DNA from: a virus
Length of the DNA stretch: 21,184 nucleotides
IMG/VR virus record: IMGVR_UViG_3300044954_000221
Location: 1 to 21,184 of that record
Direction: 5' to 3' (one strand)
The notes below the pieces were generated by a model. The model saw only the letters and a program-made list of their open reading frames with translations. It was not told where the DNA came from and did not search any database. The position numbers and the translations under genes are program-made. Below, piece after piece: positions 141 through 20,423 of this stretch. Each line of letters begins with the position of its first letter. The stretch's first letter is position 1.

Positions 141-1133
141 TCAGGAAGTAGGCGGTTGATACCACTCCGGCACCGGCAACGCATCGGCGGGCGTCTCGCC
201 GACGACGAAGGACTGGTTATCGCCGATGTAGCGCTGCGTCGTGGCGAGATCGGAGTGCCCGTAGGTCTGCTGGATCTGATCTAGCTCGACGCCTTTCTTG
301 CGGGCCACGCGGCCAAGCGTGCGGCGCAGGTCGTGCGCGGTCAAGCCGGGCTGCCCGATCTGTTCGGCGTATTTCTTGAAGGCGTCATGGACGCCCCATA
401 CGCTCATTTCCGGGATGTCTTTGTCGACGAACCTGGCGCGCGGCGGACGCATCGGCCGGAGAATGCGCCCGCCCTGGAGGCCGGCGGCGAGCGTCCACTC
501 CTGCATGGCGTCGAAGAGCCACTGCGGCATGGGGATGCGGCGGGACTTGTCGCCCTTGCCGATCAGATCGCAGATGGCGGGGCGTCCATCGACGATGCGG
601 ATGTGCTTGAATTCTACGCGCGTGACCTCCTCCCGGCGCAGGCCGCAATAGAGGAGCAACCCGAGCAATACCACGTCTCGCTTGCCGATCAGCGTGGATC
701 GATTTGGCGCCGACATCAAGCGGACGATACCGGCCTCGTCGATCCACTGGCCCAGGCGCAGTGGCGTCACCTTAGGCGATGGGATGCGCTCTATCGCCAT
801 CAGCACCGCGGGGTCGATCAAACCCTCCATCGTGGCCTCGTGCGCGAGCTTCTTGATGGGTGTCAAGCAATGGTAGATGTAGTAGGGCGGCAGGTTCTCG
901 GCGCGGCACTGGTCGATGAACTGGAGCACGAGCGGGCGACCGAAGGGCTGTCGTCCCAAGCGCCACCACCAGTCGATGAATACGCGCAGGCAGCGCCGAT
1001 ACCTGCCCTGCGTGCTGCGGGCCAAGCCGGCGGTGATTCTGTCGACTAGCTTCTGGAAGTTAGCCGGCGTGTGGATGTCGTCGGCGGGCACGATGGCCTC
1101 GCCCTTGGGGGTTACTACGATCTCGCGGTTCAA
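141..1133 (-). CDS. int: Tyrosine recombinase / phage integrase
   Basis: This 330-aa protein is a tyrosine-family site-specific recombinase that would integrate and excise the phage. An N-terminal SAM-like core-binding domain (about 25-115) precedes the catalytic domain. The catalytic residues are visible: R166 in CGLRREE, a beta-hairpin lysine in GKGDKSRR (K193 or K196), H267 and R270 in HDLRR, H293 in GHSDLATTQ, and the nucleophile Y302 in RYIG. Length and spacing are normal for phage integrases. The start is TTG at 1133-1131: it has GGAG seven bases upstream and overlaps the stop of the small upstream gene as TTGA. It is the last gene of the leftward early operon and is followed by a terminator. 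No attachment site could be identified. Confidence 0.95.
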   Translation of the reverse strand: MNREIVVTPKGEAIVPADDIHTPANFQKLVDRITAGLARSTQGRYRRCLRVFIDWWWRLGRQPFGRPLVLQFIDQCRAENLPPYYIYHCLTPIKKLAHEATMEGLIDPAVLMAIERIPSPKVTPLRLGQWIDEAGIVRLMSAPNRSTLIGKRDVVLLGLLLYCGLRREEVTRVEFKHIRIVDGRPAICDLIGKGDKSRRIPMPQWLFDAMQEWTLAAGLQGGRILRPMRPPRARFVDKDIPEMSVWGVHDAFKKYAEQIGQPGLTAHDLRRTLGRVARKKGVELDQIQQTYGHSDLATTQRYIGDNQSFVVGETPADALPVPEWYQPPTS

Positions 1134-2064: not shown

Positions 2065-3537
2065 TCATTCTCCTTGTGTGTTTTGGCCGATCCATCTCCG
2101 CCCGGCTGCTGCGTTGATGTTGAACGCTTGGCGCAAGTCCTCGCGTTTGAACTCCAGGTGTACGGTTCCCTTCTTGAAGAAGCGAATCTTGAAGTAGTAC
2201 GACTCGCACGTCCCTGGTTCTCTGGACGAACGGAATCGATCGTTTAGCGCTTTCGATACAGTCGTGAACGATCCATACTCTCGACCGTCCAACACCGCGA
2301 GGATTCTATCTAAATCGCAATAGATTGCCCCGGAGTCATGGCGCGAGTAGAGATCGAAGCTACCGTAGGAATACTGGCAACCGTAAGGGAACACGAGCCG
2401 CTTGTTCACCTTATACGAGTCGTTTGTTTTCCATCCACTGCGCCCGTCTCCGCTGCCTACGTCGCCTGTGGTGTTGCCCTTGAAGTGCCGCGTTAGCGCC
2501 TCGTAGACGTTCCATACAGACTGCTCGAACAGCTTACGCCGCTGGAGAAAGACATTCTCAAACGTTGCCTTGATGTTGTCGGCCGTGAACGCGATCGTAC
2601 TATTGCGATCCACGTCGCGGGCCAACTCCTCGGTCTGCTTGGTATCCAGCCATTTTGTGAACTCGCATTGCTCGAATACGTTTTTCCATGCGGCCTTCCG
2701 TAATCCGCTGGCGAACGCGGCGCGGGCGTGCGTCATGTTTCGCTGAGCCAGTTTCAAAATGGATCCGAGGTCGTCATGATCGCGGCTCGATTCGATTCCA
2801 CTGCCCAGCGCCTCCATAAAGATTGACGCCTTCCGCACGTGTGCAATCGCCTTGAACATCTCCGTTAGCGACTGGTTGTAGAAGTGCTCCATGTTACCGA
2901 GCTTGTCGCGAATAGCGGGCATCATCTCAGGGGAACCAATATCAGCGGCGATTGGTTTCTCCTCGCTTGTGGTCGTCGCCCATAGGTGTACGCGGTCATC
3001 CTCGGTCTGCTTCTTGAGGTAGACCATGGATACATCTACGTCCGTTTTCCGTTCTGCGTTTTGGAAGCATTTACCAAGCGGCTCAACCGATCCATGCGCC
3101 GCGATGATCTCAGCCAGCCGTTGACGTTCCTTTGTGTACGGGTTGGCGATTGTCTCATGGTTTAGGAGACAGACGATCTCGCCAGCGTGCAAGAAGTCCC
3201 AAGCCCGGAGCAGATGGGCGGCGCCTTCTGAAAATGGTGGATTCATGACGATGGCGTCGTAGTAACTCACGCCGCTGTAGGTGAGCCAATCGAACCCGAC
3301 TACCTTCAATTCTTCGTTTGCGCGTAGGGCGTTTATGAGATCCGGGTGAGACTCGATCACGTCGACTTGGTGCTGGCTGTGGCGACTCCATCGGCTAGAC
3401 CCGTGACCAAGGATCGCTTTAGCTAGGTTCCCCTTCCCGGCGCTTGGCTCCAGGAAATACCGCGCGTCTTTGCTGATGCGTGCCATCATACGGGCGGCAA
3501 CGTTGCCCGGTGTTGGGTAGAAATCAGGTCCGAACAT
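2065..3537 (-). CDS. Class I SAM-dependent DNA methyltransferase with DUF4942 domain
   Basis: A 490-aa protein. The N-terminal half is a class I methyltransferase: DFYPTPGNVA (5-14), motif I FLEPSAGKGNLA (28-39), an acidic VIES after the second strand (about 60-63), and catalytic NPPF at 99-102, the signature of N6-adenine-type amino methyltransferases. The C-terminal half matches my recollection of DUF4942: SGWKTNDSYKVNKR and a final FKIRFFKKGTVHLEFKREDL strand/helix. Such proteins occur on phages and mobile elements and may modify phage DNA against restriction. The start was taken as ATG 3537-3535: a GGGGAGGAG SD sits just upstream and it overlaps the preceding stop as TAATG. The longer frame to 3810 is rejected because its first 90 residues shadow the 63-aa and 72-aa genes. 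No target-recognition domain is obvious. Confidence 0.88.
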   Translation of the reverse strand: MFGPDFYPTPGNVAARMMARISKDARYFLEPSAGKGNLAKAILGHGSSRWSRHSQHQVDVIESHPDLINALRANEELKVVGFDWLTYSGVSYYDAIVMNPPFSEGAAHLLRAWDFLHAGEIVCLLNHETIANPYTKERQRLAEIIAAHGSVEPLGKCFQNAERKTDVDVSMVYLKKQTEDDRVHLWATTTSEEKPIAADIGSPEMMPAIRDKLGNMEHFYNQSLTEMFKAIAHVRKASIFMEALGSGIESSRDHDDLGSILKLAQRNMTHARAAFASGLRKAAWKNVFEQCEFTKWLDTKQTEELARDVDRNSTIAFTADNIKATFENVFLQRRKLFEQSVWNVYEALTRHFKGNTTGDVGSGDGRSGWKTNDSYKVNKRLVFPYGCQYSYGSFDLYSRHDSGAIYCDLDRILAVLDGREYGSFTTVSKALNDRFRSSREPGTCESYYFKIRFFKKGTVHLEFKREDLRQAFNINAAAGRRWIGQNTQGE

Positions 3538-3728
3538 TACTCCTCCCCTTCGAACAAACTGCCCTGCACCGCCGGCGGCGTTACACCGGCCTTCTGCATG
3601 AGCTTCCGCCGGTCTGCCTCGATGGCCTGCTGTGCGCGGGCTTGGGCCTCGGCTCCTGCCGTCACAGCCGCATAGATAAACTTCTGGAACTTCCGCGGGT
3701 CGATTCCGTCTTGGATGGTTACGCGCAT
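3537..3728 (-). CDS. 63-aa early protein with C-terminal QGSLF clamp-binding-like motif
   Basis: A 63-aa protein: MRVTIQDGIDPRKFQKFI, a long charged/alanine-rich helix (about 17-46), then a proline linker and the tail PPAVQGSLFEGEE. QGSLF at 55-59 fits the Q-x-x-L-F core of bacterial sliding-clamp (DnaN) binding motifs, a known family pattern; the match is by eye. The ATG (3728-3726) has GGGGA upstream and overlaps the 72-aa gene by 10 bases. Its stop shares a base with the methyltransferase start. It may act with that enzyme, perhaps tethering it to replicating DNA, which is inference. Confidence 0.7.
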   Translation of the reverse strand: MRVTIQDGIDPRKFQKFIYAAVTAGAEAQARAQQAIEADRRKLMQKAGVTPPAVQGSLFEGEE

Positions 3729-4269: not shown

Positions 4270-5391
4270 TTAGCATACCTCCGCTAGAATCTGATCTAAC
4301 AAGCTGCCCTGTGTCGGCGCTGGCGGCGCGGGCGGCGCTTCGAGTTCGATTACCGCTTTGTTGACCTGCTGCGCGGCCCACGTCGGCGCGGCGAACGTGC
4401 GGGGGAACGATTTGGCGGGCATTGATTGGGCGAAGTGAGTTATCACGTCAAGCGCTTTGGTCTTGAGGCGATCACCTGAGCCGAACATGGCAGACTCGGC
4501 GCGGCTTCCGGCGCGTGCCGTGCGGGCATGATCGGTGTACTCGGTGATGGCGTTGAGCAGGTTGTACGCGGTTCCGCGCACGTCGGGAAACGCGTTGTTG
4601 TCGTTGCCTTCGAACCGTGCGAGGATCTCGCGGAGCGTGTTGTTCCGTACCGCGCTGGAATACTCCGCGCCGTCATCGCCTTTGGTCTTGGGGTAGAGTC
4701 GGTCGAAGATGCTCTCCACCGTGTCGCGCGTCGTTGTGCGCTGTGCAAGCTGTTGGAGCGTCTCTTTCACACTGGCGCCTTGAACGCGGATATCTTGGAT
4801 CACTTCATTCATGTCCACGATGCGGCGCTCGGCGTTCTTGGTGTGGCGGATTCGTAGCTTCGCTTCGGCGGCGCTAGCTAAGGCAAAATTGAGTGTGTTT
4901 TCGCAGACGACGCGGCGGCGCGTGATGCGGAACTCATAGCTACGCGTGCAATTGTAGCTAGTCGAAAACAGCAAGTACGTTTCGTGGCGATCGCCCGGAA
5001 CGACTTCCAGGGTCAAGGCGAGATCCGCGAGACCCCATACAACTTCACCGACTCCCAACACTCCGGCGGTTTCGTAGTGTGCGCCGCCCTGGGTGGCGAT
5101 CAGGTAATCAATTCCCTCGAAGCCGCGCGAATGGTGGAGGATCGGATAGTCTTCTCCGACGTTGCCGAGAAACTCGTCGTTGTCGGTGCGGAACGTGCCC
5201 CATGAGCTCACGGGCTTGCCGCTAGGTGATTGAAGTTGGCGCTTCTCAACTCCGAAATTCATCATCCCGGAGGCGCAAAGTTCGCCCCATGTGAAGTGTT
5301 CCCCGGTCACGATGCCGAGATCGTGCCAGGCTGCGCGGCGTCCCATGTATGCGCGGGAGTTAGCGCCGTAATATGCTAGATTGTGTGCCAT
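4270..5391 (-). CDS. DUF932 / phage-plasmid-like protein (TIGR03299 family)
   Basis: A 373-aa protein. The start MAHNLAYYGANSRAYMG followed by RRAAWHDLG is the typical opening of the TIGR03299/DUF932 family, found on phages and plasmids and not biochemically defined. The core continues with GVLGVGEVVWGLADL and a conserved RRRVVCENTL segment. The C-terminus is a proline-rich linker ending PAPTQGSLLDQILAEVC. QGSLL (361-365) resembles the QGSLF tail of the 63-aa protein in the same operon. The ATG at 5391 has AAAGGAAG upstream. The 35-residue extension to 5496 has shadow-like composition and is rejected. Upstream lies a repeat array that could control this gene or serve replication. Confidence 0.85.
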   Translation of the reverse strand: MAHNLAYYGANSRAYMGRRAAWHDLGIVTGEHFTWGELCASGMMNFGVEKRQLQSPSGKPVSSWGTFRTDNDEFLGNVGEDYPILHHSRGFEGIDYLIATQGGAHYETAGVLGVGEVVWGLADLALTLEVVPGDRHETYLLFSTSYNCTRSYEFRITRRRVVCENTLNFALASAAEAKLRIRHTKNAERRIVDMNEVIQDIRVQGASVKETLQQLAQRTTTRDTVESIFDRLYPKTKGDDGAEYSSAVRNNTLREILARFEGNDNNAFPDVRGTAYNLLNAITEYTDHARTARAGSRAESAMFGSGDRLKTKALDVITHFAQSMPAKSFPRTFAAPTWAAQQVNKAVIELEAPPAPPAPTQGSLLDQILAEVC

Positions 5392-5722
5392 GCGAAAATC
5401 TTCCTTTCGTTTGGTGCTGGTGGCGGAGTGTTGGAGCACTCCGCCGCCGTCTCGAATCCCGTAAGATTCCCTATGCCGTCTCGGTGAAACGGGCAAGGGA
5501 AGCGCACTAGGAACCCGCGCGTTGGCATTGGCGGGTTGGCAGGGTCATTTTGTCTGCGGTCGTCATCTCTGCTCTCCCTGTGAACAGAGAGAACAATACG
5601 AACACGATGAACACGGTGAACAGCGTGAACAAGGCGGGGCCGTTCACCTGTTCACGCTGTTCACGCCGAAACCGTGTTCTTGGCGAGAAGGAACGGCGCA
5701 TACGAAGGTGAAATAACGATTC
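5392..5722 (-). other. Intergenic region upstream of DUF932 gene
   Basis: No normal-length gene is supported in these 330 bases. They hold the 9-bp-phased repeat array (5582-5668) and a possible 19-aa leader peptide (ATG 5566-5564, stop 5509-5507, reading MTTADKMTLPTRQCQRAGS) with GGGAG about seven bases upstream. Longer frames across the repeats give only repeat-encoded EQR/EHD or LFT/VFV triplets and lack an SD. Confidence 0.5.
5582..5668. repeat. Iteron-like array: six direct and three inverted GAAC/GTTC units with about 9-bp phase
   Basis: GAAC begins at 5582, 5591, 5600, 5609, 5618 and 5627, exactly every 9 bases. The last two units are GTGAACA, and GTGAACA also occurs at the first. After a GC-rich GGCGGGGCC centre, the complement GTTCAC begins at 5642, 5650 and 5659. 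The whole is an imperfect large inverted repeat of short tandem units, as seen at replication origins (iterons) or multi-site operators. The bound protein is unknown. Confidence 0.7.
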
Positions 5723-5950
5723 TCAGTACACGTAACCAATACGCGACGCAGCCTCCATAATGCAGCCGTCCTCTACCCGGAAAACCCGGTGGAACGATCC
5801 GCAGTTTTGCTGGCCAGGCACACGCCGTATACTGCGGAGTATGGCATCAGCCTCCCGTTCGGCTGCGTCTAGCGTGCGGTGCATCGACTCGATCGTGTAG
5901 GTCTCACGCGGACCGGACCCGGTCCACACAACTGCGTATCCGTTTTTCAT
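5723..5950 (-). CDS. Small early protein, unknown function (75 aa)
   Basis: A 75-aa basic protein: MKNGYAVVWTGSGPRETYTI, a helical LDAAEREADAILRSIRR segment (about 27-43), then FHRVFRVEDG. The mixed strand-helix-strand pattern resembles a small compact fold, but no family is recognised. The ATG (5950-5948) has GGAG about 8 bases upstream and overlaps the upstream stop as ATGA. The 26-residue extension to 6028 shadows the 81-aa gene and is rejected. Confidence 0.7.
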   Translation of the reverse strand: MKNGYAVVWTGSGPRETYTIESMHRTLDAAEREADAILRSIRRVPGQQNCGSFHRVFRVEDGCIMEAASRIGYVY

Positions 5951-6192
5951 CTTGTTTCTCCTTCTCTTTCCCGCTTCCCAGCTTCGTAGGCAGCCTCCAG
6001 GGCGGCTCTGATGTTCCAGACGGCGCACTCGTGGAAATCGAGCCTGTCTGAATTTCTAGTCTCCGTCGTCTCGATACGCAGGATCCGTGCAGCGATCTCG
6101 GCGATCTGCTGGTCCTTCTTGCTCGGCTTCGTCTCAGCCTGCAACTGGTCAATCAAGCTATCGGAAGCTAGATCATGTATCGTGAGTTCCAT
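5947..6192 (-). CDS. First gene of the leftward early operon (81 aa), unknown
   Basis: An 81-aa, charged, mostly helical protein (MELTIHDLASDSLIDQL, KDQQIAEIAARILRIE, then CAVWNIRAALEAAYEAGKR). No family was recognised. Being first after the leftward promoter (start about 48 bases downstream of the predicted RNA start) suggests an immediate-early product. The SD is modest (AGAGAG, spacing about 4-5). The stop overlaps the next start as ATGA. Confidence 0.7.
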   Translation of the reverse strand: MELTIHDLASDSLIDQLQAETKPSKKDQQIAEIAARILRIETTETRNSDRLDFHECAVWNIRAALEAAYEAGKREREGETR

Positions 6193-6246
6193 TGTTCTCT
6201 CTGGCTCTCTTTCCCGAACGTCGCTCTCCGCGTCCGATCTGAAACC

Positions 6247-6275
6247 AGTATACCGATGAATAAATAAAATTACAA
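6247..6275 (-). promoter_or_regulatory. Leftward early promoter
   Basis: On the minus strand TTGTAA (6275-6270) and TATACT (6252-6247) are separated by 17 bases, a good sigma-70 match. Transcription would start near 6240, about 48 bases before the 81-aa gene. The spacer contains TATTTATTCA (6266-6257), the word also found at the rightward promoter. Confidence 0.7.
6257..6266 (-). promoter_or_regulatory. Candidate operator inside the leftward promoter
   Basis: The 10-mer TATTTATTCA on the minus strand lies between -35 and -10 of the leftward promoter. The same word occurs on the plus strand at 6385-6394, overlapping the -10 of the rightward promoter. Shared, oppositely oriented words at divergent promoters suggest one regulator. 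Confidence 0.5.
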
Positions 6276-6359
6276 GACACAGCGGGAAATAAAGTTGTAT
6301 CTTACTGACAACACTCAGAAGATAGTTGTTTTTTCGCCTTGTCTTCGCCGCCAGGATTC

Positions 6360-6388
6360 TTGAATAATTATTCAGTACACTGTATATT
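6360..6388 (+). promoter_or_regulatory. Rightward promoter, start point at the next gene's GTG
   Basis: TTGAAT (6360-6365) and TATATT (6383-6388) have an exact 17-base spacer. The expected RNA start, about 7 bases after the -10, is at or next to 6395, the first base of the GTG start codon of the downstream gene. Confidence 0.65.
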
Positions 6389-6400
6389 TATTCAGTGTAC
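6361..6400. promoter_or_regulatory. Operator cluster over the rightward promoter
   Basis: A perfect 14-bp palindrome TGAATAATTATTCA (6361-6374) abuts a perfect inverted repeat GTACACTG (6375-6382) / CAGTGTAC (6393-6400) with a 10-base AT-only centre. Together they cover the -35, the spacer, the -10 and the start site, so a bound dimer or tetramer would block RNA polymerase. Confidence 0.6.
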
Positions 6401-7075
6401 AGTCATCCCTCGTGCTCCATTTGCCAGCATCCCGATCGGAATACTATAGATTGCCGACTCGTCGACCGGCACAAGCTCAGCGCTATCTGCCGCGACTATC
6501 CAAACCTCAACTACCAGGCGCTGCGCCGCCACCGCGAAAGGCACCTGAAACTCAACCTCGCCGCCCTTTCGCCGGCCAAACAACGCGAGGCCGCCGACCA
6601 ACTCCGCGATTACGCGATCACCACAAAATCAAGCCGCATAGCTATCCTGCAGGATCTCGTCAATCGGCACATCGCCCTCATGGAAGCCCGCGCCGCTGCC
6701 GCCGATCCAAACGATGCCGCTGCCAGAACCGGCCTCATCGGCCGCGACGGACTCTATGACCATCGGCTCAACGTCGAGATACGCGCCACTCTCGAGCAGG
6801 CGGCCAAAGAGATGCAAGACTGGGACCCTGCTGGGGCGATAGCTTATGCACGTGCCAATAGGGCGGCGGAGGCGGTACAGGGCGGGTCGATCCAGATGAT
6901 CCAAGTGATCGGCGGCAGCGCAGAGTCGGCGATAGCTGGACCAGTGCCGGTTCGTCCTATACGGGAGATCATGTTCGGCCGGCCTGATATCCAACGCTCT
7001 CTACAGAGTGTGGGTGATGATCCACCACTCTCTGGCGCAGCGGGACCGGCTGGCGGTAGCGAGCCTGGCGAGTGA
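6395..7075 (+). CDS. Zinc/HTH DNA-binding protein, candidate small terminase or regulator
   Basis: A 226-aa protein. The N-terminus has CSICQHPDRNTID with C7 and C10, then a helix-turn-helix-like LSAICRDYPNLNYQALRRHR (28-47) and HRERHL; C7, C10, H46 and H50 could bind zinc. A helical central region (about 60-145) and a Gly/Pro-rich tail follow. HTH, helices and flexible tail is the architecture of phage small terminase subunits, but an autoregulator is equally possible because operators overlap its promoter. Start: an in-frame stop at 6365-6367 leaves GTG 6395 as the only standard start before the cysteine motif. There is no SD, and the predicted RNA starts there too, so the mRNA is probably leaderless. 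Confidence 0.75.
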   Translation: MYSHPSCSICQHPDRNTIDCRLVDRHKLSAICRDYPNLNYQALRRHRERHLKLNLAALSPAKQREAADQLRDYAITTKSSRIAILQDLVNRHIALMEARAAAADPNDAAARTGLIGRDGLYDHRLNVEIRATLEQAAKEMQDWDPAGAIAYARANRAAEAVQGGSIQMIQVIGGSAESAIAGPVPVRPIREIMFGRPDIQRSLQSVGDDPPLSGAAGPAGGSEPGE

Positions 7076-7200
7076 CAGGGGGGCAGGCTGACGGCGCGGT
7101 AGGGCGGTGCGGTGCGGGGTAGCGCTCTTTACCCCCCCCATCCCTTGAAACCGACCGGGTCCCCCTGGCCGCCCCTAGGGTATCGGCCCGATCTCCCTGG

Positions 7201-7320
7201 GGTGAGGTTTGGGAGGCTGACGAGGTGCGAGTTAGGGTTGGTAAACGGTGTTGCTGGTTGGCGGAGGTTGTGATTTGGAAGTGGAAGGGTAACGCAGGAT
7301 AGGGGAGGAAGTGTAGAGGG
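7201..7320 (+). other. Strongly G-over-C skewed non-coding tract
   Basis: By count, the plus strand has 59 G and 8 C in 120 bases. G-runs such as GGG, GGGG and repeated GG pairs could allow quadruplex or R-loop structures. It lies between the control region and the terminase genes, where a packaging site or replication element could sit. No repeat unit is apparent. Confidence 0.55.
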
Positions 7321-7882
7321 GAGTGGGAACAGCCTGCGGCAGCGAGGAAAAGACGAAGTTCCCCCTACCCCAATCGGTGCTGCCTGTTTAGCGTGCTGAG
7401 GATGGCTTCGGCCGCTGCTACATCATAGCGGTTTCGCGCGGGCCTTTTGAGTTGCCGTAGCATTCCATCGACACCCGAATCGACTTGGAGGGCGGCTTCA
7501 CGAAGCACCGCCGGAGCGCCAGTTTCGATCCGAGAAACACTGATTGTGGTTTACGGCCCAGGGAGGGCTAGTGTGATGCCCTCCAATCCTGCCGAACGGA
7601 GTTGCACCGTGGAGAGAGCGCGGCCTGTGGTCTAAAGAGAGGGAAGGCTGTATCTGACCGCGCACAGTTTCACTATACAAGACCTGTGTGCAAAAACAAG
7701 AGGGTACGAAAATGTTTGGAGGAAGCTATGGAAGCCTGCTGCTTACGTCAATGTGCGACTAACATATTTTGGCAAACTGAATTTATGCGTGACAAAGCAT
7801 CGGCTTTCCCATAACAATCAAGCGCTTGCTGTTCTCAGAGCAACGCAGCGCAGGACACTACCTCACGCAGGCCGTTCGTGTG

Positions 7883-7903
7883 GCCGAATTGACACATATC
7901 GGC
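7883..7903. promoter_or_regulatory. Inverted repeat around the first TTGACACA
   Basis: GCCGA (7883-7887) and TCGGC (7899-7903) flank ATTGACACATA. The TTGACA at 7889-7894 lacks a good -10 at 17 bases, but TTGACACA recurs 43 bases downstream at the better promoter, so this may be a regulator site related to it. Confidence 0.35.
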
Positions 7904-7931
7904 AAAGTGCAAACGCTAGATCGTGTCTCTA

Positions 7932-7960
7932 TTGACACAATTTCTCGTTTGCGGTAGGGT
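7932..7960 (+). promoter_or_regulatory. Candidate late-operon promoter
   Basis: A consensus TTGACA (7932-7937) is followed after exactly 17 bases by TAGGGT (7955-7960), a partial -10. Transcription would start near 7967, giving a leader of about 100 bases before the ATG at 8068. It is the only promoter-like signal seen just upstream of the terminase-capsid block. Confidence 0.5.
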
Positions 7961-7979
7961 GATTCTAGGTCGACTGGTC

Positions 7980-8034
7980 CCAGGGCCTTCGCTTGCGCGA
8001 AAATCCTGGCCGCAACCGGGTAATTGAACCGGGT
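7980..8034 (+). other. Structured leader: hairpin plus direct repeat
   Basis: CCAGG (7980-7984) and CCTGG (8005-8009) plus TTCGC (7988-7992) and GCGAA (7997-8001) form a stem with a 3x3 internal loop and a TTGC apical loop. Immediately after, AACCGGGT occurs twice (8014-8021 and 8027-8034) with five bases between. It lies in the predicted late-mRNA leader and has no T-run. A protein- or RNA-based control element is possible; it matches no riboswitch class I know. Confidence 0.4.
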
Positions 8035-8067
8035 GTGGATTTCCGTTACCTAACCTCCCCCGAACCT

Positions 8068-8457
8068 ATGAGACTTCCTGCCCGAGATGTCGTGGCGAAG
8101 CTGTATCCGCGTGTACCGTTGCGCGAAAACGGTGAATTGTTGACGCACTTGAGCGAGCAGGAGGCGCAGAATTTGTGCCGCCTGGAGTATGTACAGGGTA
8201 TTTGTTCGCTCCGCAAGGGCGGAGACGGCCGTAAGGAAATCGGGGATTTGCGCTTTCTGGAGTTGATCGTGACCAGGCGGCGGCTGCAGACGGTGTTGCG
8301 CCGGATGGTGGCGCGGAGCGGCAGGATTTCGGCCGAGGGATCGAAGACGACGTTTACGAATCGGTTCGGGGTATTCCATAGCCCGTCGAGAAGCAGGGCT
8401 TACCGCGATCCGCTGGAGCGCATATTCGTGTTCAGGCGGCTTGTGCCGGCGGCGTGA
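8068..8457 (+). CDS. Protein of unknown function directly upstream of terL (129 aa)
   Basis: A basic, mostly helical protein: MRLPARDVVAKLYPRVPLRE, a helix-rich middle (about 30-85) including LTHLSEQEAQNLCRLEYVQG, and an Arg-rich C-terminal part with SRAYRDPLERIFVFRRL. It is not recognised as a known small terminase family, but its place directly before terL and the TGATG junction make a packaging role possible. No start has a good SD. ATG 8068 is used here; GTG 8035 and TTG 7993 are in frame, and the residues they would add look fairly protein-like, so the true protein may be up to 154 aa. Confidence 0.65.
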   Translation: MRLPARDVVAKLYPRVPLRENGELLTHLSEQEAQNLCRLEYVQGICSLRKGGDGRKEIGDLRFLELIVTRRRLQTVLRRMVARSGRISAEGSKTTFTNRFGVFHSPSRSRAYRDPLERIFVFRRLVPAA

Positions 8458-10289
8458 TGCGGCCGGCTACCTGGACAATCCTGGACGGCAACGGCGAGGT
8501 ACTTTGGGCCGCGCAGCCAGGCCCCCAGCAAGACGTGTTCAATTTGGCGTTCGCGCGGAAGGATCCGGCGAACGAGATTTTGATAGGCGGCGCCCGCGGC
8601 GGCGGCAAGACGGCGGTGATGACGGCGTTCATGCTGTGCCATGTCGACAATCCCGAGTTTGTCGGGCTAGTTCTCCGCAAAACGGCTGAGTCGCTGAAAG
8701 AGTGGGTGGATAAGGCGTACGAGTTGTACAAACATCTAGGCGCCAAGAAGGTCGATAAACCGACGCAGTTCGTGTTTCCCAGCGGCGCCCGCATCCACAC
8801 GGCGCACTTCAAGGATGAGCGGTCGCTGGAGGATGTGAAGGGTCACGAGTACCACTTCATCGCGCTCGAAGAGGCAACGCAGATTTCTTCGGCTCGAATG
8901 TACGAGTGGTTGCTCGGCTCAAATCGGTCGACGGTGAAGGGGATTTCGCCGAAGATCCTGTTGACGACGAACCCGGACGGCCCTGGCAATGGCTGGGTGC
9001 GGAGGCGATTCGTCGATGTCGAGATCAACGGGCAGCTCATTGCGCACAAGACCAGGTTCAAGGCGGGTGGCCGTATCAGGGTGTTCGTCCCGGCGAGGGT
9101 GCACGACAACCCGATTCTCGAGGAGCGCAATCCGGAGTACGTCGAGTGGCTTCGGAACATTGAGAACGAAGCGCTGCGCAAGGCGTGGTACGACGGCGAC
9201 TGGAACTGCATGGAGGGTGCGTTTTTCCCCGAGTTCCGGCCGACCGGCCCGTATGCCGGAGAGCCGGAACGCGCCAATCATGTGATTGCGGCGGTGGATA
9301 TACCGGCGTGGTGCCATCGCTGGGCGGCCATCGACTGGGGCTACATGCACCATTCGGCGGTCTACTGGGCCGCGATCGCGCCCGACCGCAGGACCCACGT
9401 TTACCGCGAGATGCTGGTGCGGCAATGGAGCGCGGAGGACTTCGGCATGGAGTTCGCCAAGCGGACACTGCCGGATCTGGAAGAACAACCGGACCGGACG
9501 ATGACGGTATACCTGTCGCACGATGCGTTCGGGACCAGGAATACCGGCAAGACCATCGCCGAGCAGATCCAAACCGGGATTGAGCGTATCGTCGGCCCGA
9601 ATAGCGTGTTCATCCTCCAGCGAACCGAGGAGGAGCGAAAGCTGGCGTTTAACGATTTGGGCGGCGCCAACGCGATGATGATTGCGCGCATGGAGGAGCA
9701 ACTCGGCGGCGCAAGAATCGTCATTAAGCGGTCGTCGGCCGATAGAACGGCCCAGGCATCGCAGGTTCGGCGCTATCTGAACTGGCGCACGGAAGTGGAA
9801 ATCGTCGAGCCGGATATGAAGTACGCCGCCCAGTTGTTGAGCGAGCACGACGGATACGAAAAACACCGCGCTTACCTGGCGAAGTTTGAAGCGCAGCGGC
9901 GGCGAGTGCCTGTACCGATGCTTCAGATCCACAGCGTTTGCCGGCATCTGATCGAGGTATTCCCAAGGCTTCAGCCCGATCCGAAGAACTTGGAGGCCGT
10001 GCGTAAGTTCGATAACCGATCGTCGGACCCGATGAATACTCAAGTCGGCGACGACCCGTTCGACGCGCTTTGCTACTTGCTGATGGGCGGCGTCGAACAG
10101 CAGAACGACGTTCCGTTTCACGTCTATCTCACGAGCCAAATTGAACGGCTCCTGCCGAGCGGAGATAACGATATCAACCTGAAAATTCAGATCGCGCAAG
10201 CGGCGCGCAAAAAGTTCGAGGGACAGAGAGTTCCGACCGTGATTGAGTGTCTTGGCCGAGCGTCGATGGAGTCACGATGGACAAACTGA
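8457..10289 (+). CDS. terL: Terminase large subunit (packaging ATPase-nuclease)
   Basis: A 610-aa protein, the motor that pumps DNA into the prohead and cuts it. ATPase domain: Walker A GGARGGGKT (44-52), Walker B FIALEE (134-139) and coupling motif LLTTNP (168-173). The nuclease domain has an RNase H-like acidic triad, probably D293 in AAIDWGY, D356 in SHDAFG, and D532/D533 or D536 in GDDPFDALCYL. Length and motif spacing are normal for TerL. ATG 8457 shares one base with the upstream stop; GTG 8454 is an alternative that adds one residue. It heads the virion gene block and its end overlaps the next gene by 13 bases. Confidence 0.95.
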   Translation: MRPATWTILDGNGEVLWAAQPGPQQDVFNLAFARKDPANEILIGGARGGGKTAVMTAFMLCHVDNPEFVGLVLRKTAESLKEWVDKAYELYKHLGAKKVDKPTQFVFPSGARIHTAHFKDERSLEDVKGHEYHFIALEEATQISSARMYEWLLGSNRSTVKGISPKILLTTNPDGPGNGWVRRRFVDVEINGQLIAHKTRFKAGGRIRVFVPARVHDNPILEERNPEYVEWLRNIENEALRKAWYDGDWNCMEGAFFPEFRPTGPYAGEPERANHVIAAVDIPAWCHRWAAIDWGYMHHSAVYWAAIAPDRRTHVYREMLVRQWSAEDFGMEFAKRTLPDLEEQPDRTMTVYLSHDAFGTRNTGKTIAEQIQTGIERIVGPNSVFILQRTEEERKLAFNDLGGANAMMIARMEEQLGGARIVIKRSSADRTAQASQVRRYLNWRTEVEIVEPDMKYAAQLLSEHDGYEKHRAYLAKFEAQRRRVPVPMLQIHSVCRHLIEVFPRLQPDPKNLEAVRKFDNRSSDPMNTQVGDDPFDALCYLLMGGVEQQNDVPFHVYLTSQIERLLPSGDNDINLKIQIAQAARKKFEGQRVPTVIECLGRASMESRWTN

Positions 10290-18533: not shown

Positions 18534-20423
18534 ATGGCGGCGATTCGCGGGTTCAACTCGACGAGCGCGAAAAATCCGCGCGGTCCGTGGACGAAAATTC
18601 AAGACCGCGCGGCAAACCCTTCGCGGGCGAAGACGGCGTTGAACGTAGCCTACGGGCCGATCAATGTCTACACGCGCGACGGGTTCGGCCAGGCGCTTGC
18701 CGTCTCCGGCAAGGTGACCAGCATGTACCACTGGGTCACGACTTCAAGCGGCCTCGCCATCAACCGGCTGGTTTTTTATGAATCCGAGTCGTCGCTAAAA
18801 ATGCGCGATCTCATCGGGCTATCCACGCAAACCCTCTTCTCTCAAGCCGCACGCGGCGCAGTCTGCGCCGAAGCCGGCAACCGCCTCTTCATCCCCACAT
18901 TCACAACAGCCGGAATAGCGGCCTCCCAGATGCGCATTGTCAACGCACTCCTTGGCGGAGTTCCGTTCGATTACGGCTTTGCGCCGCCAATGACGGTCGC
19001 TCCGTCGATGAGCGACACCGGCGCCGGGCAGTGTTCGAGCGGCGCCCACCGCTTTGGATACCTGCTTGAAGACCGAACTGGATTCACAGGCAAGCCGTCC
19101 CCGTACATCTCAGGCGTATTCACGCCGACATCGTACACCGTCACCGGGAGCAATCGCGCGCTCCAGATGACCGTGAGCGGGACTATGCCGACCAACGCAT
19201 CGTACTTGCACGCGATCATGACGCGCAAGGATAACCCGAACCGGTGGTATCGTGTGCCGGATGCTTCGGTCGCGGTTCCAGGCGGCGTTTCGTGGACCGC
19301 GAACATTCCGATCAGCATTTCCGACGAAGACCTTGCCGCGCGCGCCACCGAGGTTACGGAGAACTTCTCCTACCTCACGCAGGACAGCGGCGGCAGTGGG
19401 CCGTTCAGCCCTCACTTCGCCATCGAATACGGCCAGCGCATGGTGTACCTCACCGAGCAGCGCGCCTACGTGAGCGACATCCAGGATTACCAAGTTATAT
19501 TGAATCCGCAGTCTACTTTGGATCTTCCCGGCCAGCGCCGCATGGTGACCGCCATGGTCGTGCGCGGCGTGCTCTACATCCTTGGCCCCGGATGGACATA
19601 CGGCATTCAGGACAGCGGGAACGCCGGCCGCGCCAGAGAATGGGGAACCCCGGCGCTCATCAGCGGCGGCATCGGAACGACGGCCATCCAAGGAACCTGC
19701 TGGCGTACCGGCGGCGACTATGCGTGGGTCGCCAACAAGACCGGCCTGTATTACTTCGATGGGAAGTACAGCGACGAGCCAATCAGCTTCGGCGTTGACC
19801 CGGAATGGGCTCGCATCAACTGGGGCGCGCCGCAGACGATTCAAGTTGTGGACGACTACGTGAATCACAAGGTCGTGGTACTGGCTCCCCTGGACGGGGC
19901 GACCGAGCCGACTCATATGCTGACTTTCGATTATCGGCGCGGGAAGGGTTGGAGAGACGTGGATTTCTCGTTGGACAATCTGCCCACTTCGATCTCTTCG
20001 CTTGCGATGGTCCTCGACAATGCAACCGGGCTGAGTTCGCTGTGGGTTGGACCGGCGGCGTCCGGGCATATCGTCAAGAGCGAGATCGCGAGGCGAAACG
20101 ACGATGGGAGCGCGATCGACTCTCAATACGAAACGGGCCTGCTCGTCAATCCTCCAGCCGGATACCGCTTCACCAAATGCGGCGGACTGGAGCTAGATGT
20201 CACCGGATCCGGGACCCTTGCCGTAACCTTTCGTGGGCTGAACGAGGTGTACACGCGGGCGCTTAACTCCGTGACCCTTGCCGCGGCGCCGGCCGATTAT
20301 CCGTTTGTTCCGGCCGACGACTTCGATCAGAACTTCTCGGTGTTACTGCGGACGAACGCCGTGAGCGCATTCTTCGATCTCGCCCGGGTGACGGCGTACC
20401 ACCTTCCCTGGATGTCGAACTAA
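18534..20423 (+). CDS. Tail nozzle candidate (beta-propeller-like, 629 aa)
   Basis: A 629-aa beta-rich protein with repeated strand-turn segments that suggest propeller blades, for example GNRLFIPTFTTAG, FGYLLEDRTGFTG, GQRMVYLTEQRAYVSD, TGLYYFDGKYSDEPISF and HMLTFDYRRGKGWRDVD. In P22 and T7 the nozzle (gp10/gp12) is a propeller and follows the connector, as here, so this role is inferred from order, length and composition. AGGTG lies 8 bases before the ATG. The C-terminal 100 residues look like a jelly-roll or Ig-like extra domain. Confidence 0.65.
   Translation: MAAIRGFNSTSAKNPRGPWTKIQDRAANPSRAKTALNVAYGPINVYTRDGFGQALAVSGKVTSMYHWVTTSSGLAINRLVFYESESSLKMRDLIGLSTQTLFSQAARGAVCAEAGNRLFIPTFTTAGIAASQMRIVNALLGGVPFDYGFAPPMTVAPSMSDTGAGQCSSGAHRFGYLLEDRTGFTGKPSPYISGVFTPTSYTVTGSNRALQMTVSGTMPTNASYLHAIMTRKDNPNRWYRVPDASVAVPGGVSWTANIPISISDEDLAARATEVTENFSYLTQDSGGSGPFSPHFAIEYGQRMVYLTEQRAYVSDIQDYQVILNPQSTLDLPGQRRMVTAMVVRGVLYILGPGWTYGIQDSGNAGRAREWGTPALISGGIGTTAIQGTCWRTGGDYAWVANKTGLYYFDGKYSDEPISFGVDPEWARINWGAPQTIQVVDDYVNHKVVVLAPLDGATEPTHMLTFDYRRGKGWRDVDFSLDNLPTSISSLAMVLDNATGLSSLWVGPAASGHIVKSEIARRNDDGSAIDSQYETGLLVNPPAGYRFTKCGGLELDVTGSGTLAVTFRGLNEVYTRALNSVTLAAAPADYPFVPADDFDQNFSVLLRTNAVSAFFDLARVTAYHLPWMSN

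Follow-up and report, generated by a model that had tools for sequence, protein, structure and literature searches.

A putative tandem ARG-like operator and a candidate SOS box in the divergent control region of an integrase-carrying phage

The divergent control region of an integrase-carrying phage holds two adjacent 18-bp palindromic boxes over its rightward promoter, and the best sequence match over both boxes together is ArgR, a regulator of host type. In addition, an exact direct repeat in the same spacer is a candidate SOS box. We propose, with a probability of roughly 0.4, that this control region may be wired to two regulators of the host, one of ArgR type and one of SOS type. Judged from the arrangement of its sites, the rightward promoter is probably closed by an operator.

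The window, which means the whole stretch of DNA analysed here, is the entire IMG/VR record IMGVR_UViG_3300044954_000221, with 21,184 bases and a GC content of about 60%. Leftward from the control region come, in order, the 81-aa DUF6900 gene, an 82-aa ORF, the DUF932/TIGR03299 gene, small ORFs, the DNA methyltransferase with DUF4942 and the tyrosine integrase, while the rightward arm runs from the 226-aa ORF over 1.4 kb to the large terminase, the portal (PHROG 9e-05; the Pfam P22 portal is matched under its cut-off) and unassigned ORFs. Because it carries an integrase, the phage is probably temperate. Moreover, since the scanned proteins revealed no gene for lysis or replication, save for one weak below-cut-off match to phi29-SSB, the record is probably a fragment. 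There is no Rfam family at gathering score in the window, and no tRNA. Two further stretches were observed in passing. At 5580-5670, between the 82-aa and DUF932 genes, GAACA/TGTTC words, as seen by eye, follow each other every 9 bp, and a 17-nt loop is enclosed by a perfect 16-bp inverted repeat (5616-5631/5649-5664); the element is possibly a terminator, an attenuator or iteron-like. From the 226-aa gene toward the terminase, about 900 bases at 7080-7990 contain ORFs negative on the codon model and, at 7766-7818, promoter-like pairs on both strands, and this stretch is possibly a packaging site, an RNA or a second control region; the 154-aa ORF at 7993-8457, which overlaps the terminase start, has a slightly positive codon score and no PHROG family.

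Regarding the host, the seven top-ranked plasmid matches of the integrase (32-36% identity) are acidobacterial in five cases (Acidisarcina, Paludibaculum, Granulicella) and from Deinococcus in two, and its 11 phage matches, six from Listeria and the rest from others, are weaker than the plasmid ones. The best phage relatives of the methyltransferase belong to two Tunturiibacter phages, at 49.1% and 48.0% identity. Because the relatives of integrase and methylase point to that phylum, the host is likely acidobacterial, but DUF6900 points away from Acidobacteriota (83 of 90 records are Streptococcus phages) and the DUF932 relatives are mostly in actinobacterial phages. When the 23 window proteins were compared with 123 other loci (L002-L124) at E 0.01, only the methyltransferase (6 loci), DUF6900 (2) and, weakly, the integrase (2) gave matches. 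The terminase has no close relative in viral_contigs and its relatives in 1022 phage records fall below 60% identity; with a terminase alignment, 31 genomic loci and, as the best of 597, 80 viral loci were obtained, every one of them distant. For the presumed 422-aa capsid protein there is no relative in viral_contigs or phages, and for the remaining right-arm proteins none was found.

An earlier note on this DNA had described two sigma-70-like promoters with 17-base spacers facing apart, and both lie where it had placed them (leftward pair 6275-6247, rightward pair 6360-6388; Table 1), each scoring 9/12, as does a second rightward pair. The spacer has three promoter-like pairs where its own Markov model gives a mean of 0.41, and in 0.6% of 5000 such runs each strand had a pair with a 17-bp spacer. 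The GTG at 6395 follows 7 nt past the -10 and no Shine-Dalgarno sequence is seen before it; therefore the message for the 226-aa protein would be leaderless, and we infer from these sequence features an active rightward promoter with a leaderless start.

Table 1. Features of the window and of the Granulicella plasmid pACIX903 referred to in the text
Feature	Position	Strand	Remarks
Divergent intergenic control region	6193-6394		From 81-aa ATG 6192 to 226-aa GTG 6395; 202 bases; 40% GC
Leftward -35-like TTGTAA	6270-6275	-	Promoter scan
Leftward -10-like TATACT	6247-6252	-	Promoter scan
Rightward -35-like TTGAAT	6360-6365	+	Promoter scan
Rightward -10-like TATATT	6383-6388	+	7 nt from last base to GTG 6395
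Second rightward promoter-like pair TTGTCT-18-AATAAT	6339-6368	+	-35 within direct repeat 6333-6349; overlaps main pair
Direct repeat GGCGAAGACAAGGCGAA, exact GGCGAA-N5-GGCGAA	6333-6349	-	Putative acidobacterial SOS (LexA) box
Operator box 1 CTTGAATAATTATTCAGT	6359-6376		17/18 to ARG consensus; 17.3 bits
Operator box 2 ACTGTATATTTATTCAGT	6379-6396		17/18 if position 1 is W, 16/18 if it is the printed T; 17.4 bits
Wider inverted repeat GTACACTGTATA/TATTCAGTGTAC	6375-6400		Surrounds box 2
Left copy of TATTTATTCA	6257-6266	-	Second half weak at best
Tyrosine integrase	141-1133	-	Pfam/PHROGs; top-ranked plasmid matches in Acidobacteriota and Deinococcus
DNA methyltransferase with DUF4942	2065-3615	-	Nearest annotated phage relatives in two Tunturiibacter phages
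DUF932/TIGR03299 phage-plasmid-like protein	4270-5394	-	Pfam and NCBIfam
81-aa DUF6900 protein	5947-6192	-	PF21841, 6e-22; first gene of leftward arm
226-aa ORF	6395-7075	+	GTG start within box 2; N-terminal CxxC and HRERH visible
Terminase large subunit	8454-10289	+	1.4 kb downstream of 226-aa gene
21-bp direct repeat GGCGAATRAAAGGCGAARTAA, candidate acidobacterial LexA box	L181:17427-17447 and 19146-19166	- and +	Promoters of imuA-like and SOS-peptidase genes, pACIX903

The 10-mer TATTTATTCA, which the earlier note had taken as an operator word common to both promoters, is found exactly twice in the window, in opposite orientation at 6257-6266 (-) and 6385-6394 (+). A whole-window shuffle gave a mean of 0.00 for such a pair, a null that is too lenient for a spacer of 40% GC in a record of about 60% GC, and the local null was a Markov model of the spacer itself with 5000 runs, in which inverted copies of a 10-mer separated by 40 nt or more arose in 1.5%. 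Taken alone, the shared 10-mer is marginal. The palindromes are clearly non-random, since ones matching the best here arose in only 0.08-0.8% of the 5000 local runs, depending on arm length. The 14-bp palindrome and the 8-bp inverted repeat reported at the rightward promoter are both present, and each sits within a larger structure: the palindrome (6361-6374) within the inverted repeat 6361-6376/6379-6394 (88%), the 8-bp repeat within 6375-6386/6389-6400 (92%). TGAAT-type half-sites alternate in orientation every 10 bp at this promoter and form two 18-bp palindromes, and the right copy of TATTTATTCA is the right half of one box of this tandem pair. The left copy reaches at best 7.5 bits as an ARG site and 3.1 as a LexA site, against ARG scores of 17.3 and 17.4 in the right boxes. 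What is common to the two promoters is thus a word but not a full operator. For the switch layout suggested earlier, a divergent control region does lie between an integrase-bearing left arm and a terminase/portal right arm, but the same full operators do not occur at both promoters. An attachment site was rejected as a reading of the palindromes, because the integrase gene is 5 kb away and they sit on a promoter.

The word could still be bound at both promoters by one regulator, the 226-aa or the 81-aa protein, which would switch between them. Confinement of the exact 10-mer to the two promoters would suit this, and so would the CxxC and possible helix-turn-helix visible by eye at the 226-aa N-terminus and a weak ARG-like site (14/18) that overlaps the left copy; yet the left copy has 7.5 bits against 17 on the right, the word has a local P of about 0.015 and neither protein has family or fold support, so that we regard such a switch as highly improbable. 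For the 226-aa protein, no above-chance family was obtained from Pfam, PHROGs or NCBIfam and no relative from viral_contigs, genome_contigs or phages; its predicted structure has a mean pLDDT of 41.9 and an unusable fold, and no solved-structure match appeared at E 1. It is possibly a small terminase subunit or a regulator. The earlier proposal of these two proteins as regulators gained nothing from the searches, in which the 81-aa one turned out to be a DUF6900 protein.

The tandem boxes themselves are best described by the ARG motif. The E. coli ARG-box consensus is TNTGAATWWWWATTCANW as given in the excerpt of PMC4865122, to which the two 18-bp palindromes match at 17/18 and 16-17/18. Our scan consensus has W at position 1, and with WNTGAATWWWWATTCANW each box counts 17/18 and the sum is 34/36. 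The corresponding sums of the E. coli pairs are argI 34, carA 32, argE-argC 32, argG 32 and argA 31 (spacing 21), and argR 16+13=29 (spacing 20). In the window the centres are 20 bp apart with a 2-bp gap, and therefore both boxes lie on one helix face; the -35, the -10 and bases one and two of GTG 6395 all fall within them. For canonical E. coli ARG sites the excerpt of PMC6640053 gives a 3-bp gap.

For scoring, a matrix was built from 12 boxes of six E. coli arginine operators, namely those that came closest to the consensus at that spacing; matrix and consensus are those of E. coli and may not be the host's, and the control boxes for both ARG and LexA were selected by hand within known promoters for their fit to consensus strings. 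When each box in turn is omitted from the matrix, the six E. coli pairs score 22.8-35.6 bits, and the window pair, at 34.7 bits, exceeds five of them; its single boxes (17.3 and 17.4 bits) compare with 7.3-19.7 for the 12 E. coli boxes. The pair score was reached in 0/20,000 local Markov sequences and in 2/20,000 random tandem palindromes. Across the 123 other loci (1,023,676 bases) no pair reached 34.7 bits and one had a consensus sum of at least 32. This single pair (L113:1969-2007, sum 33), from a Clostridia genome, is flanked by an ABC-ATPase-like ORF and by a gene on the opposite strand for a family-3 solute-binding protein, which NCBIfam places closest to a lysine/arginine/ornithine transporter family, under that family's cut-off; it is an unplanned positive control.

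Other observations speak against an ARG reading. According to the excerpt of PMC2409434, ArgR did not bind a site beside loxP of P1 that matches the ARG box at 16/18. No arginine gene was recognised in the window, and across nine plasmids and one phage of Acidobacteriota the ARG-like pattern gave one site with two mismatches where its reversed control gave three. At the left promoter, any ArgR-type contact would be made through a weak ARG-like site over the promoter spacer (6259-6276, 14/18 to the E. coli consensus), where the B. subtilis AhrC consensus also has its best spacer match (14/18, with 0.0097 expected). Taking these together with the scores, ArgR may bind the tandem operator, a proposal we make tentatively.

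The nearest competitor to the ARG motif is LexA of gamma-proteobacterial type, the consensus of which is CTG-N10-CAG; it was our first idea and was demoted to a rival for the poor fit of box 1 and the differing host hints. Nine E. coli SOS boxes, selected for their fit to the consensus, gave a matrix on which box 2 (16/20 to that consensus) scores 17.6 bits, within the 14.6-24.6 of the nine boxes left out in turn, and box 1 scores 12.8, under all nine. The pair of 12.8 + 17.6 is nevertheless on par with the two boxes of E. coli lexA itself, 14.6 + 14.7, and it passes the same nulls as the ARG pair, being reached in 0/20,000 local sequences and 1/20,000 random tandem palindromes, and nowhere in the 123 loci. 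In fact, the two motifs are alike, the LexA consensus itself being 16/18 as an ARG box. The cross-scores separate them: on the ARG matrix the E. coli LexA boxes score no more than 12.7, and on the LexA matrix the ARG boxes score no more than 12.4, while the window boxes have ARG 17.3 + 17.4 against LexA 12.8 + 17.6, and therefore ARG fits both boxes and LexA one. Among 22 motifs compared, the numbers of as-good single sites expected in the spacer are 0.0006 for LexA, 0.0007 for ArgR and 0.0097 for AhrC as the next. Control of phage promoters by LexA is well known, as the excerpt of PMC4551915 sets out, but the host hints are acidobacterial, and two Granulicella SOS-gene promoters share a direct repeat without CTGT-N8-ACAG at up to one mismatch. 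We therefore consider it improbable that the boxes are gamma-type LexA/SOS boxes and the rightward promoter an SOS promoter. Still less should the boxes be ascribed to a chance palindromic run in AT-rich promoter DNA with no specific regulator. The spacer is indeed AT-rich and several motif families were compared post hoc (the 22 motifs); however, palindromes at 0.08-0.8% and tandem ARG or LexA pairs at 0/20,000 in the local model make this very improbable.

The candidate SOS box, GGCGAA-N5-GGCGAA, occurs exactly once in the window, inside the divergent spacer, and by chance an exact repeat arose in 1/100 whole-window shuffles and 0/50,000 local sequences. It covers the -35 of the upstream rightward pair and ends 10 bp before the main -35. 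The link with SOS genes comes from one strain, Granulicella tundricola, whose plasmid pACIX903 carries an imuA-like gene (annotated as recombinase A), a Y-family polymerase, an error-prone polymerase and an SOS-associated peptidase. Its imuA-like/imuB/dnaE2 and SRAP promoters share the repeat GGCGAATRAAAGGCGAARTAA, spotted by eye and then confirmed, and CTGT-N8-ACAG is absent from both promoters at up to one mismatch; the GGCGAATRAAAGGCGAARTAA pattern had no match in 100 shuffles, but it was built from those two sites. GGCGAA-N5-GGCGAA was the sole Granulicella-derived motif tried on the window. The exact repeat is there at 6333-6349, and we infer that the repeat itself is recognised by LexA. 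Its 11-bp period resembles the alphaproteobacterial GTTC-N7-GTTC.

In ten acidobacterial records the exact motif occurs four times (twice on pACIX903 and once each on pACIX904 and pPfer1); with up to one mismatch it has 20 sites, only double the 10 of its reversed control. Located 11 nt upstream of an unassigned gene, an intergenic pACIX904 site matches the window repeat at 16/17. A Nitrospirota SOS cassette lacks the motif, and a search of nine acidobacterial plasmids and phage Tunturi_4 gave no LexA DNA-binding domain. Over 1,005,289 bases of other loci one exact copy occurs (L006); it lies inside a 163-aa ORF, looks like chance and was discarded. As a separate observation, the whole window has 13 sites with up to two mismatches against 4.85 expected. 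On this evidence, the repeat at 6333-6349 can be put forward, with some reserve, as a functional SOS box. No acidobacterial LexA motif was found in the listed literature as covered by titles, abstract openings and a term search of PMC8565304.

If the sites act as proposed, the rightward promoter would start a leaderless message at GTG 6395 that heads toward the packaging genes, and a repressor on the tandem operator would shut the promoter by occupying its -35 and -10 together with the start codon. A host repressor of ArgR type would keep it closed while arginine is plentiful, and a host SOS repressor at 6333-6349 would act on the upstream overlapping promoter and release it after DNA damage. 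It is a further and unlikely step that the phage cedes its lysis-lysogeny decision to ArgR and an acidobacterial SOS regulator, sensing nutrition and DNA damage with no repressor of its own.

Temperate phages mostly encode their own repressor, two cooperative operators over a promoter are a usual layout, and phage repressors are by far the commoner cause of such sites. The main rival of our reading, a real possibility, is such a phage-encoded repressor, CI-like or other, with its gene beyond the 21-kb record or among the unassigned small genes of the left arm, and with a coincidental likeness to ARG. As the record may be a fragment, a repressor gene could sit outside it, and several small left-arm ORFs have no convincing family. 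On the other side stand the 2/20,000 random tandem palindromes that reach the ARG pair score, a comparison limited in that natural operators are themselves non-random and any of many host regulators might have been chosen for it, together with the results of the protein searches: no repressor or helix-turn-helix family, S24 included, among ten proteins scanned against each of Pfam, PHROGs and NCBIfam (the sets of ten differ), and no LexA or ArgR DNA-binding domain in the record. The earlier remark that no CI/Cro-like gene adjoins the region agrees with these scans of ten proteins per library in a possibly incomplete record.

Tandem ARG-like sites were also looked for in other viruses. The pattern TGAATWWWWATWCA-N6/7-TGWATWWWWATWCA (spacing 20/21) occurs in 29 viral stretches on 28 contigs of viral_contigs and at spacing 25/26 in none. 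These stretches lie outside any ORF of at least 60 aa in 26 cases, and in 14 of the 29 an ORF of that minimum length faces them at a distance of up to 150 nt. The GC content is under 40% in 24, and six carry an identical plain 20-bp repeat. In the 28 viral records one ArgR-domain match fell below the cut-off and none above it. All this is no more than suggestive of tandem ARG sites being widespread in phages. A search with the palindrome pattern gave two viral contigs, with neighbouring ORFs unlike those of the window. Elsewhere, a perfect ARG-type pair, TGAATTAATATTCA + TGAATATTAATTCA with 21 bp between centres, is located beside a phage adenine methyltransferase gene (L156:1851-1885); a query from this locus had matches in 46 of 5426 E. 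coli genomes and in 90 phage records, none covering 80% of it, and the places listed extend over just its methyltransferase end. Among the papers listed on ArgR and phages, including excerpts of PMC6640053, PMC2409434, PMC7093339 and PMC4707531, none on a tandem ARG operator in a phage promoter was found.

If our reading is true, the phage would sense the arginine status and DNA damage of its host directly through host repressors, and a metabolic input would be added to the known examples of LexA and CtrA. Acidobacteriota are a major phylum of soil of which few phages have been studied, and the direct repeat offers an SOS-box candidate for them; GGCGAA-N5-GGCGAA would then be the first description of a Terriglobia SOS box known to us.

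Among known systems, the immunity region of lambda type has divergent promoters with tandem operators over the rightward promoter, and the window resembles it in both respects. Unlike that region, the window has no cI/cro gene found alongside and the full operator is not at both promoters. ArgR sites at lambdoid pI and p1 were predicted by software in passing, with no tandem operator analysed, in the excerpt of PMC7093339. The E. coli operators of argI, carA, argE-argC, argG, argA and argR likewise consist of two 18-bp imperfect palindromes, 20-21 bp from centre to centre, over a promoter, and in consensus match the window is as good as argI; it differs in that its site belongs to a phage promoter and no arginine gene was recognised, and in its 2-bp gap, which among the six controls argR alone has. 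The phages of Alphaproteobacteria with CtrA sites and "lytic deferment", as described in the excerpt of PMC9437464, likewise have in a promoter region the sites of a global host regulator that reports the host state; there the regulator and the hosts are others and binding is demonstrated, whereas the window sites are predicted from sequence. A further known system is promoter P1 of GIL01, which, in the excerpt of PMC4551915, is under host LexA, in a phage that also has no recognised repressor of its own and has host-regulator sites on its promoter; GIL01 uses dinBoxes of Bacillus-type LexA together with its own gp7, whereas the main operator of the window is ARG-like.
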